DNA of 64,000 bases from an uncultured Pseudomonadales bacterium (lineage in GTDB: Bacteria; Pseudomonadota; Gammaproteobacteria; Pseudomonadales; Azotimanducaceae), in the NCBI GenBank assembly GCA_958296405.1, contig OY282519.1, forward strand, positions 310,001-374,000. Direction: 5' to 3'. This document shows positions 1 to 4,759 of this stretch, piece after piece. The notes beneath the pieces were generated by a model, which searched no databases, had not been told where the DNA came from, and saw only the letters and a program-made list of their open reading frames with translations. Made by a program: the position numbers and the translations under genes. Position 1 is the first letter of the stretch. The number at the start of each line of letters is the position of its first letter.

Positions 1-843
1 GCCGAAGTAGCCCAAGGTGTCCTGATGTTCCCGGAACACGCGGTTGAACGCCGCGATTTGCCCGGCGTCCAGACAGGTGATCTGGCGTTCGTTCATGTCG
101 GTCAACATTTCGTCGTAGTCCTTCGCCTTGAGGCGGCGGCGCAGGATCAAATCGTCCAGTTCCGGCACGAGGGTTTGGATCGTCCGGGCGGCCCCCTCGG
201 GATCTGCGCACATGGTCTCGTAGGTGAAGAAGACACCGCGTTCCCGGTGCGTTTCGACATTGCGGCGCTGCCAGGCGAGGCAGTTGGCGACGTGGGTCGC
301 GGCCGCCGCCGGCAGGCTCCTGCCCGACGTCTCGAACTGGCGTTGGTAATGCGCCGAGAGCCGGGTCCGGTAGCGCCGGCAGATGCCTTCGCAGACGGCG
401 TAGGGGTTGCGCACCATGAACACGAACCGGGCGTTGCGGAAATGCCGGACCAGTTGCTCCACATGCAGCAGGTGCTGGGTGGACTTGGTGACGAACACCG
501 AGGCGTCCGGGGCATGGGCGCGGGCGTGGAAGTACCACGCCTTGCGGGTGCGCGGCCAGTCGTAGCTGCTCGGCTGCGTGAAGAGGTCGAGCCAGCTCCG
601 CTCCGACGCCCACAGCAGGCCGGGGAACCATTGCTCGCCCTCTGGGCCGCCCAGGGCTCGATAGGTCACCGGCCCGGCGAAGCCGCGTATCATCTGGCCT
701 TCCCACGGCAGCCGCCACGTCGCGCGGCAGGACTCCAGCGCGGCGGTGAGGAACGACGAGCCGCTGTTGTTCGGACAGACGACGAACAGATGCGTCCCGA
801 TCACGGTCGCGAGGTCGCGGTCGGCGCCGGGGACGTAGTTCAT
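1..843 (-). CDS. Sulfotransferase family protein (C-terminus beyond window)
   Basis: This reading frame runs off the left edge, so only 281 codons are visible. A PAPS-dependent sulfotransferase transfers sulfate from PAPS to a hydroxyl group. The N-terminus carries a 5'-phosphosulfate-binding P-loop-like stretch (VVCPNNSGSSFLTAALES, residues about 21-38). Further on lies the 3'-phosphate-binding type segment FVFMVRNPYAV, about residue 140, with the usual RNP core. No signal peptide is seen, so it is probably cytoplasmic. Its ATG overlaps the stop of the upstream glycosyltransferase (ATGA), so the two are probably translationally coupled. It is the last visible gene of the peptide-glycosyltransferase-sulfotransferase set. 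The substrate is unknown; the neighbouring peptides, each with a conserved tyrosine, are an attractive but unproven candidate. Confidence 0.8.
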   Translation of the reverse strand, partial: MNYVPGADRDLATVIGTHLFVVCPNNSGSSFLTAALESCRATWRLPWEGQMIRGFAGPVTYRALGGPEGEQWFPGLLWASERSWLDLFTQPSSYDWPRTRKAWYFHARAHAPDASVFVTKSTQHLLHVEQLVRHFRNARFVFMVRNPYAVCEGICRRYRTRLSAHYQRQFETSGRSLPAAAATHVANCLAWQRRNVETHRERGVFFTYETMCADPEGAARTIQTLVPELDDLILRRRLKAKDYDEMLTDMNERQITCLDAGQIAAFNRVFREHQDTLGYFG

Positions 844-1805
844 TCCCTGTTCCCGGCGAGCCTGTCCCCGGCGCTGCGCACGTGCGCGTCCGCCAGGCAG
901 CCCACATAGGCGTCATACCAGAGCCTGAAGGCATCCACGGGCTTGCGTTTGGGGTCGCCCTGCGTCCAGCGGAGCATGGCCTCCGGCATCCAGGGTTTGA
1001 CGGGCCCGGCGAAATGCAGCGTCCTGGCGTTTCCGGCGTCGACGCCCTCTCGCGCATGAATCGCCTCGGCCATGGGGACCACGAAGTCGTAGGTCCAGCC
1101 CACCAGCGTCTGGCGCCCGGCAAAGTGGCGGTTCAGGATGAGCTGGTCCGTATGGGTGGTGGCGGCGCCGGACCAGGACTGCGGCGCCACCAGGTCCAGG
1201 AGTTCCGTGTAGCAGCCTTCCTCCACGAGCCCCGCGTCGATGAGCAGGAAGCCGGCGCCGAAGGTGCGCTCGAGCACGCCTGCCGCGCCGGGCGGTCGTG
1301 CGGGGGGCAGGGGCGCGAAGGTGGCGGCGTCGCGTCGCGCGCCGCGCAGGAACACGTCGTCGCCGCAGCACAGCAACGCTGCGGGCGAGTCGAACAGGTC
1401 GGCGACGGAGGCTTGGAACAGGACGTCGCTGTCGTAGAACAGCACCTTGCGGTAGCCGCGCAGGCGGAAGGCTTCGAGGGAGTAGAGCTGCCCCAGCCTG
1501 GGTGCGAGTTCCGGGCGGGCGGCGCCCAGGGCGGCCAGCCGGTCGTGCAATTCGGGGGAGATGGGCTCGAAGCGCACGCGGGGGCAGGCCTGCGAGAGAT
1601 GTCGGCGGTGGGCTTCGGGCAGCGCGTCGTGGACGACGACGAGGTCGCCGCCGAAGCCGGGGTGGTGTTTCAGGAAAGAGCCGAGGGCGACGAGCGTGCC
1701 CGGCACGAAGCGCTCCGTGGTGGCGGTGACGAAGCAGATCTCCTTTGCGGCGTGCCCGCATGGAGGAGTTGCGTCAAGAGTCAAGGGAACCCCTTGAGGG
1801 AGCAC
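840..1805 (-). CDS. Glycosyltransferase, GT8-like nucleotide-diphospho-sugar transferase
   Basis: 321 residues. The N-terminal strand EICFVTATTERFVPGTLVAL and the later YRKVLFYDSDVLFQASVADLF (a DxD-type metal/nucleotide-sugar site, near residue 125) resemble GT8-family and related retaining transferases. A long region ending in TLHFAGPVKPW also fits GT8, where an HFxGxxKPW motif is typical. The predicted start is GTG at 1805, 27 bp after the stop of the first 58-residue peptide gene, and a conserved hairpin lies between them. No clear Shine-Dalgarno was found at this start. The first 25 or so codons are duplicated as vestiges inside the two upstream tandem units (2206-2285 and 2688-2767), so the start region belongs to the amplified segment. 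It overlaps the sulfotransferase downstream. Likely role: sugar transfer to the peptide product or to a surface glycan. Confidence 0.8.
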   Translation of the reverse strand: MLPQGVPLTLDATPPCGHAAKEICFVTATTERFVPGTLVALGSFLKHHPGFGGDLVVVHDALPEAHRRHLSQACPRVRFEPISPELHDRLAALGAARPELAPRLGQLYSLEAFRLRGYRKVLFYDSDVLFQASVADLFDSPAALLCCGDDVFLRGARRDAATFAPLPPARPPGAAGVLERTFGAGFLLIDAGLVEEGCYTELLDLVAPQSWSGAATTHTDQLILNRHFAGRQTLVGWTYDFVVPMAEAIHAREGVDAGNARTLHFAGPVKPWMPEAMLRWTQGDPKRKPVDAFRLWYDAYVGCLADAHVRSAGDRLAGNRE

Positions 1806-1806
1806 G

Positions 1807-1832
1807 ACGAAAGACTATGGAGACTCTTTCGT
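1807..1832 (-). promoter_or_regulatory. Conserved hairpin after each peptide gene
   Basis: An 8-bp perfect stem ACGAAAGA/TCTTTCGT encloses a 10-nt loop, starting at the stop codon of the peptide gene and ending just before the GT start. The identical structure occurs at 2287-2312 and 2769-2794 in the other two units. There is no T-run, so it is more likely an mRNA-processing, stabilising or attenuating element than a terminator. Function is inferred from position only. Confidence 0.5.
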
Positions 1833-3051: not shown

Positions 3052-3065
3052 ACCGTCAAACGGCC

Positions 3066-3092
3066 AAAAAAACCCCGCCGGAGCGGGGTTTT
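3066..3092 (-). terminator. Rho-independent terminator of groESL
   Basis: On the minus strand a GC-rich stem CCCCGC/GCGGGG with a short loop is followed by a run of seven T, about 35 bp past the groEL stop. Copies lie near 2590-2616 (intact) and 2108-2133 (one stem base changed and T-run altered) within the tandem units. Confidence 0.8.
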
Positions 3093-3124
3093 CTGGTTGC
3101 TCTTGGAGCAGCAACAAAAAGGCG

Positions 3125-4759
3125 CTACATCATGCCGCCCATGTCTGGCATGCCACCGCCTGGAGGCGCTGCCGGCTTGTCTTCCGGCGCTTCCGCCACC
3201 ATGGCCTCGGTGGTAATCATGAGCCCAGCGACGGACGCCGCGGCCTGCAACGCGGTGCGCGCGACCTTGGCAGGGTCTGGAATGCCCATGTCGATCATGT
3301 CGCCGTATTCGCCAGTGGCGCCATTGAAGCCTTGATTGCCTTCGAGGCTTGCCACTTTGTCGAGCACGACCGCGCCTTCCGCACCGGCGTTCTGCGCGAT
3401 TTGGCGTAGCGGCGCCGACATGGCGCGCTTGGCGATGCCGATGCCAACGTTCTGGTCTTCGTTGTCGCCGGCCAAGCTGTCGATGGCCTGCAGGGCGCGC
3501 ACCAGCGCGACGCCACCGCCAGCCACGATGCCTTCCTCCACGGCGGCGCGGGTGGAATGCAGCGCGTCTTCGACGCGTGCCTTCTTCTCCTTCATTTCCA
3601 CTTCCGTGGGGGCGCCCACCTTGATGACCGCCACGCCGCCAGCCAGCTTCGCCAACCGCTCTTGGAGCTTCTCGCGGTCGTAATCCGACGAGGTGTCCTC
3701 GATCTCTTGGCGAATCTGCTTGATGCGGCCTTCGATTTCGACTTTAGCGCCGGCGCCATCCACGATGGTGGTGTTCTCCTTGGTACAGGAGATGCGCTTG
3801 GCGGTGCCGAGATCTTCCAGCGAGGCGCCTTCAAGGGTGAGCCCCACTTCTTCGGAGATCACCGTGGCGCCGGTGAGGATGGCGATGTCCTGCAGCATGG
3901 CCTTGCGACGGTCGCCGAAGCCGGGGGCTTTGGCGGCGACGATCTTCACGATGCCGCGCATGTTGTTCACCACCAACGTGGCGAGCGCTTCGCCTTCGAT
4001 GTCTTCCGCGATGACCATGAGGGGCTTGCCCGCCTTGGCCACGTTCTCGAGCATCGGCAGCATGTCGCGGATGTTCGAGATTTTCTTGTCGCAGAGCAGG
4101 ACGAACGGATCCTCCAAGTCTGCGGACATCGAATCTTGGTTGTTGATGAAGTAGGGCGACAGGTAGCCGCGATCGAACTGCATGCCTTCGACGACTTCCA
4201 GCTCGTTCTCGAGGCCGCTGCCTTCCTCGACGGTGATGACGCCCTCTTTGCCGACCTTTTCCATGGCGTCCGCGATGATCTCGCCCACCGCCGGGTCGTT
4301 GTTGGCAGAGACGGTGCCCACTTGGGCGATGGCCGTGGAATCTTCACACGGGGTGGCCATGGCGCCGATTTGTTCCACCGCGGCGATGACTGCCTTGTCG
4401 ATGCCGCGCTTCAAGTCCATCGGGTTCATCCCCGCGGCGACGGACTTGAGCCCTTCCGTGAGGATGGACTGCGCCAGCACCGTGGCGGTGGTGGTGCCGT
4501 CGCCGGCCTCGTCCGAGGTTTGGCTCGCCACTTCCTTCACCATCTGGGCGCCCATGTTCTCGAACTTGTCCTTGAGTTCCACTTCCTTGGCGACGGAAAC
4601 CCCATCCTTGGTGACGGTGGGCGCGCCGAACGATTTGTCCAGCACCACGTTGCGGCCCTTCGGCCCCAAAGTCACCTTCACCGCGTTGGAGAGGATGTTC
4701 ACCCCTTCGAGCATTCGGCTCCGGGCATCGTCTCCGAACTGTACGTCTTTCGCACTCAT
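3125..4759 (-). CDS. groEL: Chaperonin GroEL (60 kDa)
   Basis: 544 residues, full length. GroEL forms the double-ring cytosolic folding chamber, capped by GroES and driven by ATP. Visible hallmarks are [20 protein letters not shown] at the N-terminus, [17 protein letters not shown], the ATP-binding [12 protein letters not shown] (residues about 86-97), and [20 protein letters not shown]. The GGM-rich end is [11 protein letters not shown]. It follows groES by 28 bp in the standard operon and is followed by its own terminator. Its last codons were captured in the tandem amplification downstream, giving vestigial groEL tails at 2165-2205 and 2645-2685. No key residue appears to be missing. Confidence 0.98.

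Follow-up and report, generated by a model that had tools for sequence, protein, structure and literature searches.

A dispersed family of candidate lasso peptide precursors with C homopolymers in an uncultured Pseudomonadales bacterium

We analyzed a stretch of 64,000 nucleotides (subsequently designated the window) from the chromosome of an uncultured Pseudomonadales bacterium (assembly GCA_958296405.1, contig OY282519.1, positions 310,001 to 374,000), at the left end of which three small genes lie next to genes for a GT8 glycosyltransferase and a sulfotransferase. Comparison of these genes with the remainder of the chromosome and with related loci suggests, at a probability of about 0.8, that the three small genes encode class-II-type lasso peptide precursors belonging to a dispersed, diversifying and phase-variable set, which would be matured in trans and tailored by the GT8 and the sulfotransferase. 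The family is lasso-type by most tests, but not by all.

The precursor family and its lasso-type features

The window locus comprises the following features.

1..843, minus strand: sulfotransferase of the ST3 type, truncated by the window edge (PF13469, 56.7 bits, cut-off 27)
840..1805, minus strand: open reading frame (ORF) of the GT8 glycosyltransferase (PF01501, 50.7 bits, cut-off 24.3)
1832..2008, minus strand: precursor 1, 58 codons from ATG; predicted core GTDPDPVVENATYHPTS, Glu at position 9 if Gly is residue 1
2312..2488, minus strand: precursor 2, 58 codons from ATG; predicted core GAQPDPNENVTYSPMS, Glu at position 8
2794..2970, minus strand: precursor 3, 58 codons from ATG; predicted core AVDTHPDPENCCYSPAS, Glu at position 9, residue 1 Ala
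1976..1995, no strand: G20 homopolymer (C20 on the coding strand) in precursor 1, in frame with the ATG
2456..2475, no strand: G20/C20 homopolymer in precursor 2, in frame
2941..2957, no strand: G17/C17 homopolymer in precursor 3, in frame
1739..3190, minus strand: three tandem units of ~480 bp each (starts 1739, 2219 and 2701, from the unit alignment)

A sequence-only reading of the window had proposed three 58-residue precursors followed by GT8 and sulfotransferase genes that overlap by ATGA, and the coordinates and Pfam matches bear this out, the overlap following from the positions 840..1805 and 1..843. The PDP, EN, Tyr and terminal P-x-S elements that it listed are likewise present in all three window tails, and N-x-T in two of them; it did not mention that the Pro run is encoded by a pure C20, C20 or C17 homopolymer. 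The actual start of the GT8 gene probably lies inside the ORF, and the GT8 sequence contains a DxD motif of presumed function (in YYDSD). The sulfotransferase gene extends ~66 bp beyond the left window edge (302 codons, genome 309935-310843), and its product is 51–67% identical to eight paralogues encoded next to other precursors.

The three window precursors belong to a family of 18 related genes, which are dispersed over one chromosome of 3.83 Mb. Searching the own genome with a single 58-residue sequence returned 19 matches at E <= 10; 17 of them were counted as family (E from 2e-5 to ~0.7) and two were not, and the 18th member was added by a motif scan. A profile of the 18 members found all of them at E <= 8.1e-13, values that are optimistic because the profile was built from the same members; three further matches (E 0.03-0.7) were weak and unconvincing. 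The members share a common plan: a Pro run and the motif K-K/R-x-W-x-K/R-P are followed by a Gly-led tail, in which a Glu is conserved, a Tyr stands close to the end and Ser is the last residue.

Genes that recur next to the precursors encode GT8 enzymes, two types of sulfotransferase (PF13469 and PF00685), an HprK-like kinase, an Asp/Asn hydroxylase, a TPR-2OG oxygenase and an asparagine-synthetase-like cyclase. A gene for a GT8, sulfotransferase, HprK-like kinase, hydroxylase or lasso cyclase lies within 10 kb of 15 of the 18 precursors, and 14 are at most 1.1 kb away from a GT8 or ST3 gene, as counted in the regions around the loci with models built from this genome's own genes. The copies at 1064903 and 3443756 are identical over 200 bp downstream and 96% identical over 100 bp upstream; since the former has no gene of this set within 10 kb, this near-identity suggests that single precursors move.

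Lasso leaders carry an aromatic-x-x-Pro motif, and the leaders of this family conform to it: the aromatic residue, which is Trp rather than Tyr, and the Pro are invariant in all 17 aligned rows. The cores were studied in 62 automatically parsed sequences with positions counted from the conserved Gly, a set that leaves aside three of 65 unique tails without a parsed Gly and retains several cores that were probably cut too early (e.g. 104500, L102, L114) as well as two sequences that may not be precursors (L113_4655 and L097_13247). Glu was found at position 8 or 9 in 38/62 cores, as compared to a mean of 10.4 and a maximum of 20 in 2000 shuffles. The published lasso ring range is positions 7-9 (PMC9266682); by the automatic parse, 42/62 cores have Asp or Glu there, and the cores of the window are in agreement with Glu at 9, 8 and 9. 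Ser is the C-terminal residue of 56/62 cores, and Tyr occurs among the last eight residues in 61/62.

Genes for the maturation machinery were detected elsewhere on the chromosome.

Genome 824795-826624: B2 leader peptidase, an NTP_transf_5 + Transglut_core3 fusion (NF033537, 67.5 bits, cut-off 33)
Genome 826608-828599: ATP-binding cassette (ABC) exporter, overlapping the B2 gene
Genome ~838578-838880, minus strand: B1 (PqqD), PF05402 above cut-off
Genome 853801-854124, plus strand: B1 (PqqD), PF05402 above cut-off

The B2 gene is the only match to PF13471 above cut-off in the whole genome. Nine matches above cut-off were obtained with the cyclase model PF00733, seven of them long; six full-size cyclases are located near precursors and the seventh beside a B1 gene. 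When one cyclase was scanned against NCBIfam, its best match was NF033535 (1.1e-95). No cyclase gene is close to the window locus, and B2, the exporter and both B1 genes lie ~0.5 Mb away, so that the window precursors are probably matured in trans. The earlier idea that the set is complete in itself or continues to the left thus failed on both counts, and a complete stand-alone set at the window is rejected: B1, B2, cyclase and exporter are encoded in other parts of the chromosome, while the DNA directly left of position 1 holds genes for a TonB-dependent receptor and an aminotransferase and no maturases. The receptor gene (PF00593, PF07715; genome 307203-309785) is separated from the sulfotransferase gene by ~150 bp and has the same strand as the sulfotransferase and GT8 genes. 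A G19 tract (genome 841004-841022, L050) has genes for B1, a cyclase, an HprK-like kinase and a sulfotransferase as neighbors, along with a transposase-like ORF, and no precursor was recognized at this site.

C tracts, reading frames and core divergence

The 5' coding part of 17 of the 18 own precursors contains a C homopolymer of 9 to 24 residues. Among 43 G/C runs of at least ten residues on the chromosome, 16 fall within 15 precursors; two more precursors have C9 and one has no tract. We asked whether a start codon preceded by a Shine-Dalgarno sequence (SD-ATG) is in frame with leader and core. Under equal start rules this was the case for 12/30 members with a tract and 21/27 without (p = 0.007), and another start rule gave 9/30 and 18/27 (p = 0.008); rows lacking an SD-ATG (three and six) are omitted from these counts, members with identical ends are merged, and the p-values are too small because the members are related. 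Of 16 distinct own tract members, seven were in frame, eight were out of frame and one had no SD-ATG; the likely start of the copy at 882004 is out of frame. MAG (metagenome-assembled genome) chromosome OY282455.1 carries two copies whose sequences agree completely in the 100 bp preceding and the 200 bp following the tract, which is C25 in one and C33 in the other; both are out of frame with the SD-ATG, the frame at L090 having been judged by eye. Moreover, the relatives at L100, L097 and L124 are in frame from the same start that is out of frame in the own members 1748082, 3439381 and 1965712. Comparison among copies thereby supports switching of the precursors by their tracts, as far as sequences can indicate it.

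Each of the three tandem units at the window consists of one precursor, a stretch resembling the 3' end of groEL and a stretch resembling the 5' end of the GT8 gene, the end stretches having been identified from sequence. Because every unit has both, the units seem to have arisen by tandem duplication of the precursor cassette that lies between groEL and GT8. In related MAGs (L089, L090, L093, L096), a near-identical sulfotransferase (91–93%) occurs at sites where a groEL-tail copy was not found. In pairwise comparisons among the units, 23–33% of sites differ in the core, 4–11% in the leader and 2–12% in the flanking non-coding DNA. Pooled, 44/147 site comparisons differ in the core as opposed to 72/901 in non-coding DNA, in a sample of three copies with dependent pairwise comparisons. 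This faster change of the core relative to non-coding DNA points to diversifying selection on the cores.

Other homopolymers may mark further tract-controlled genes. In the window, G21 at 8189-8209 is located just upstream of ATG 8224 of a gene (8224-11433) for a 1069-residue leucine-rich repeat protein with a reprolysin-like domain, which is possibly another gene under tract control, and C12 at 34545-34556 shortly precedes the start of what by eye looks like an XRE-type regulator. Further homopolymers (genome 1166154, 2861845, 2866335, 3755684 and 3756752; L053, L059, L063) lie before or inside genes for Calx-beta-like repeat proteins, named by eye after their PSVTEGDSG repeats, which are possible tract-controlled surface proteins. 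A C22 tract (genome 857017-857038, L051) separates a rhamnosyltransferase-like gene (PF11316) from a GT8 gene of the set, and this GT8 may itself be tract-controlled.

Related loci and rival explanations

A contig search with the sulfotransferase alignment returned 36 loci in 11 records: seven uncultured gammaproteobacterial or Pseudomonadales MAG chromosomes, a Gemmatimonadetes MAG, another gammaproteobacterial MAG, Puniceicoccaceae bacterium K14 and Citromicrobium sp. JLT1363. A precursor match (E <= 0.01) was present at 33/36, a GT8 at 34/36 and a cyclase at 30/36 of these loci, which are not independent (many per genome) and were scored with models derived from this genome. In distant bacteria the enzyme genes stand together in one compact cluster. 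Of four clusters of this kind, two (L117, L118) contain HprK, ST1, GT8, ST3, hydroxylase, cyclase, B1, B2 and ABC genes, and two others (L122, L123) comprise HprK, ST1, GT8, ST3, hydroxylase, cyclase and B1, with no B2 or ABC match within the stretch examined. No precursor was found in the L123 stretch; that of L122 sits between B1 and cyclase. Across the order, the precursor search matched 3/293 genomes, strongly in the own genome only, the other two matches having E-values of 4e-5 (with an internal stop) and 8e-4, and the sulfotransferase search matched two other genomes; the negatives are weak, as first-look candidates were scored in part (in a same-genus genome, 21/68 and 8/40).

Several findings weigh against a switched set of lasso precursors, and those concerning the tracts could be accounted for if the family were lasso-type but the tract were no switch, i.e. 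a polyproline spacer that drifted to a homopolymer, with the out-of-frame members as decayed copies. None of the window copies (C20, C20, C17) is out of frame, and the frame contrast is modest; a stricter start choice weakens it to 11/30 versus 18/27 (p = 0.034, subject to the same relatedness). Long homopolymers are prone to consensus errors, which may also have affected the assembled tract lengths. Homopolymers are also found outside the family (27 of the 43 long G/C runs), several tractless members in relatives still keep the leader, and three own precursors (1064903, 1965712, 2648973) have no gene of the set inside 10 kb. Leader codon changes among the window units are, like those of the core, mostly non-synonymous, and a search for sigma-70-like promoters found none; a terminator search found three (2.1 expected). 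However, the out-of-frame members retain an intact leader, core and C-terminal Ser, which decay would erode, the near-identical C25 and C33 copies differ solely in tract length, and relatives of out-of-frame members are in frame from the same start. We therefore regard drift and decay as unlikely.

Other findings concern the lasso assignment itself. Glu is at position 10 in 18/62 cores, some of which have Glu only there or later, so that the ring spacing of part of the family exceeds 7-9. Thr at leader position -2 is described as highly conserved in lasso precursors (PMC12670498); counting Gly as residue 1, it is found in 1/62 sequences here, whereas 27/62 have Thr at -3. If the core began one residue earlier, these 27 would have Thr at -2, and the start residue is thus uncertain by one. 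Six own precursors, those of the window included, match no lasso precursor model. Apart from B2, the enzymes scanned also remain below their NCBIfam cut-offs, with 51 and 61.8 bits for the B1 proteins on NF033536 (cut-off 80), 321.6 bits for the cyclase on NF033535 (cut-off 525) and 33.1 bits for the HprK-like match (cut-off 200). The ring spacing, the lack of Thr at -2 when Gly is counted as residue 1 and the lack of a cyclase near the window locus could indicate a non-lasso class that uses the same enzymes. Its members would be, e.g., glycosylated and sulfated peptides of linear form, and the lasso-type genes would act on other precursors. Yet the same precursor family directly adjoins cyclases elsewhere, and at L122 the precursor that lies beside B1 and cyclase comes near to the paeninodin-family model (22.6 bits, cut-off 27). 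We consider a non-lasso class improbable, and even more so the view that the ORFs are unmodified small proteins or spurious and that the GT8/sulfotransferase pair serves a surface polysaccharide, as members of both enzyme families frequently do: the recurrence of precursor, GT8 and cyclase at the 36 loci already disfavors it to the point of near-dismissal.

Proposed maturation and comparison with known systems

In the scheme that we favor, that of lasso precursors matured in trans, one of the two free-standing PqqD-type B1 proteins would bind the W-x-K-P leader, the single B2 peptidase would cleave it off, one of the lasso cyclases would close the ring via the conserved core Glu, and the ABC transporter encoded beside B2 would export the product. 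The GT8 may add a sugar and the sulfotransferase a sulfate to the tail, the conserved Tyr and the C-terminal Ser being the candidate sites, while phosphorylation of the C-terminal Ser would probably fall to HprK-like kinases from other loci. Replication slippage in the C homopolymer, which follows closely on the start codon, would bring the precursor into or out of frame, and slippage gene by gene would, as we propose, let each cell make a different subset of the dispersed precursors. The sequences themselves document the family with its tracts and out-of-frame members, the enzyme genes next to it, the homologues of B1, B2 and the cyclase, and the rapid change of the cores, while the chemistry and its sites, the action in trans and switching in real time are inferred. 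Evenly balanced, in our judgment, is the wider proposal of a genome-wide combinatorial repertoire, in which each of ~18 scattered precursors, subject to diversifying selection, would be turned on and off at random by the C tract that it carries. All would share one B2/exporter pair in trans and draw on alternative cyclases, kinases, glycosyl- and sulfotransferases, and sister cells would thereby display or secrete different modified lasso peptides, akin to antigenic variation of surface proteins.

Comparison with solved structures provides hints only as to the tailoring chemistry. Nearest in sequence to the GT8 is glycogenin (E 1.5e-6 with the single sequence, 4.5e-13 with a profile), which glucosylates its own Tyr. 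The sulfotransferase profile is closest to CurM (1.3e-5), and its matches to protein-tyrosine sulfotransferases are both weak and short (E 0.012-0.084); with the single window sulfotransferase, the best match among solved structures had E 0.0075 and the others were weak. RaxX is a tyrosine-sulfated peptide, and a Tyr-bearing peptide beside a sulfotransferase gene is common to both systems; the RaxX system is not known to include lasso enzymes. Tyr sulfation as in RaxX is a possible modification here by analogy. N-glycosylation at N-x-T, considered as another candidate, is not supported: N-x-S/T occurs in 11/62 parsed cores and is no family trait.

Many dispersed precursors are served by one lanthipeptide synthetase in the prochlorosins, which share with the present family the principle of common enzymes acting on scattered, core-variable precursors but belong to another class of ribosomally synthesized and post-translationally modified peptides (RiPPs); to our knowledge, no homopolymer tract occurs in them. 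That the window genes encode RiPP precursors with a conserved leader, a variable tail and local tailoring enzymes, as first suggested, is supported, and the class can now be named as lasso. The designation as undescribed was too strong, since lasso gene-cluster families with sulfo-, glyco- and nucleotidyl-transferases have been published from sponge metagenomes (PMC9426513); the accessible part of that source names no tracts, dispersed precursors or product. A review also mentions a lasso cluster that contains a sulfotransferase gene (PMC8498205). Closest in gene content are the paeninodin-type and the proteobacterial SyanA/SyanK lasso peptides, which likewise involve a free-standing B1, B2, cyclase, exporter, HPr-kinase homologue and a precursor with C-terminal Ser (PMC8498205, PMC9266682). 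In these systems the C-terminal Ser is phosphorylated by the HPr-kinase homologues, and the near-invariant C-terminal Ser of the present family is consistent with such a modification. There, however, one cluster holds everything, while here the precursors are many, dispersed and mostly C-tracted, and GT8 and sulfotransferase genes are added. The phosphoglycosylated lasso peptide pseudomycoidin shares the nucleotidyltransferase, which is fused to B2 in some clusters as it is in the own B2; the excerpted description does not include a GT8 or sulfotransferase (PMC8498205).

Phase variation by homopolymers near the 5' end of a gene, with frame-dependent expression, is known for surface and virulence genes (PMC2831843), whereas here the tracts lie in a RiPP precursor family. 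Our search of the open-licence literature, with subscription papers and preprints outside its scope, retrieved no report joining lasso or other RiPP precursors with homopolymer phase variation. Modified lasso clusters with sulfo- and glycosyltransferases are already known, as is homopolymer switching in general, and what appears to be new is their combination.

Research on lasso peptides usually deals with single clusters that yield one or a few products. If the proposed scheme is true, the peptides produced would vary between cells of one clone, with consequences for views on the purpose of these peptides and for their mining: cluster-based miners would miss precursors without nearby enzymes, and out-of-frame members would look like pseudogenes. 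The system would also be suited to testing lasso enzymes with a broad range of accepted cores, as well as tailoring by sulfotransferases and GT8 enzymes, which the sources cited here mention as predicted genes only.

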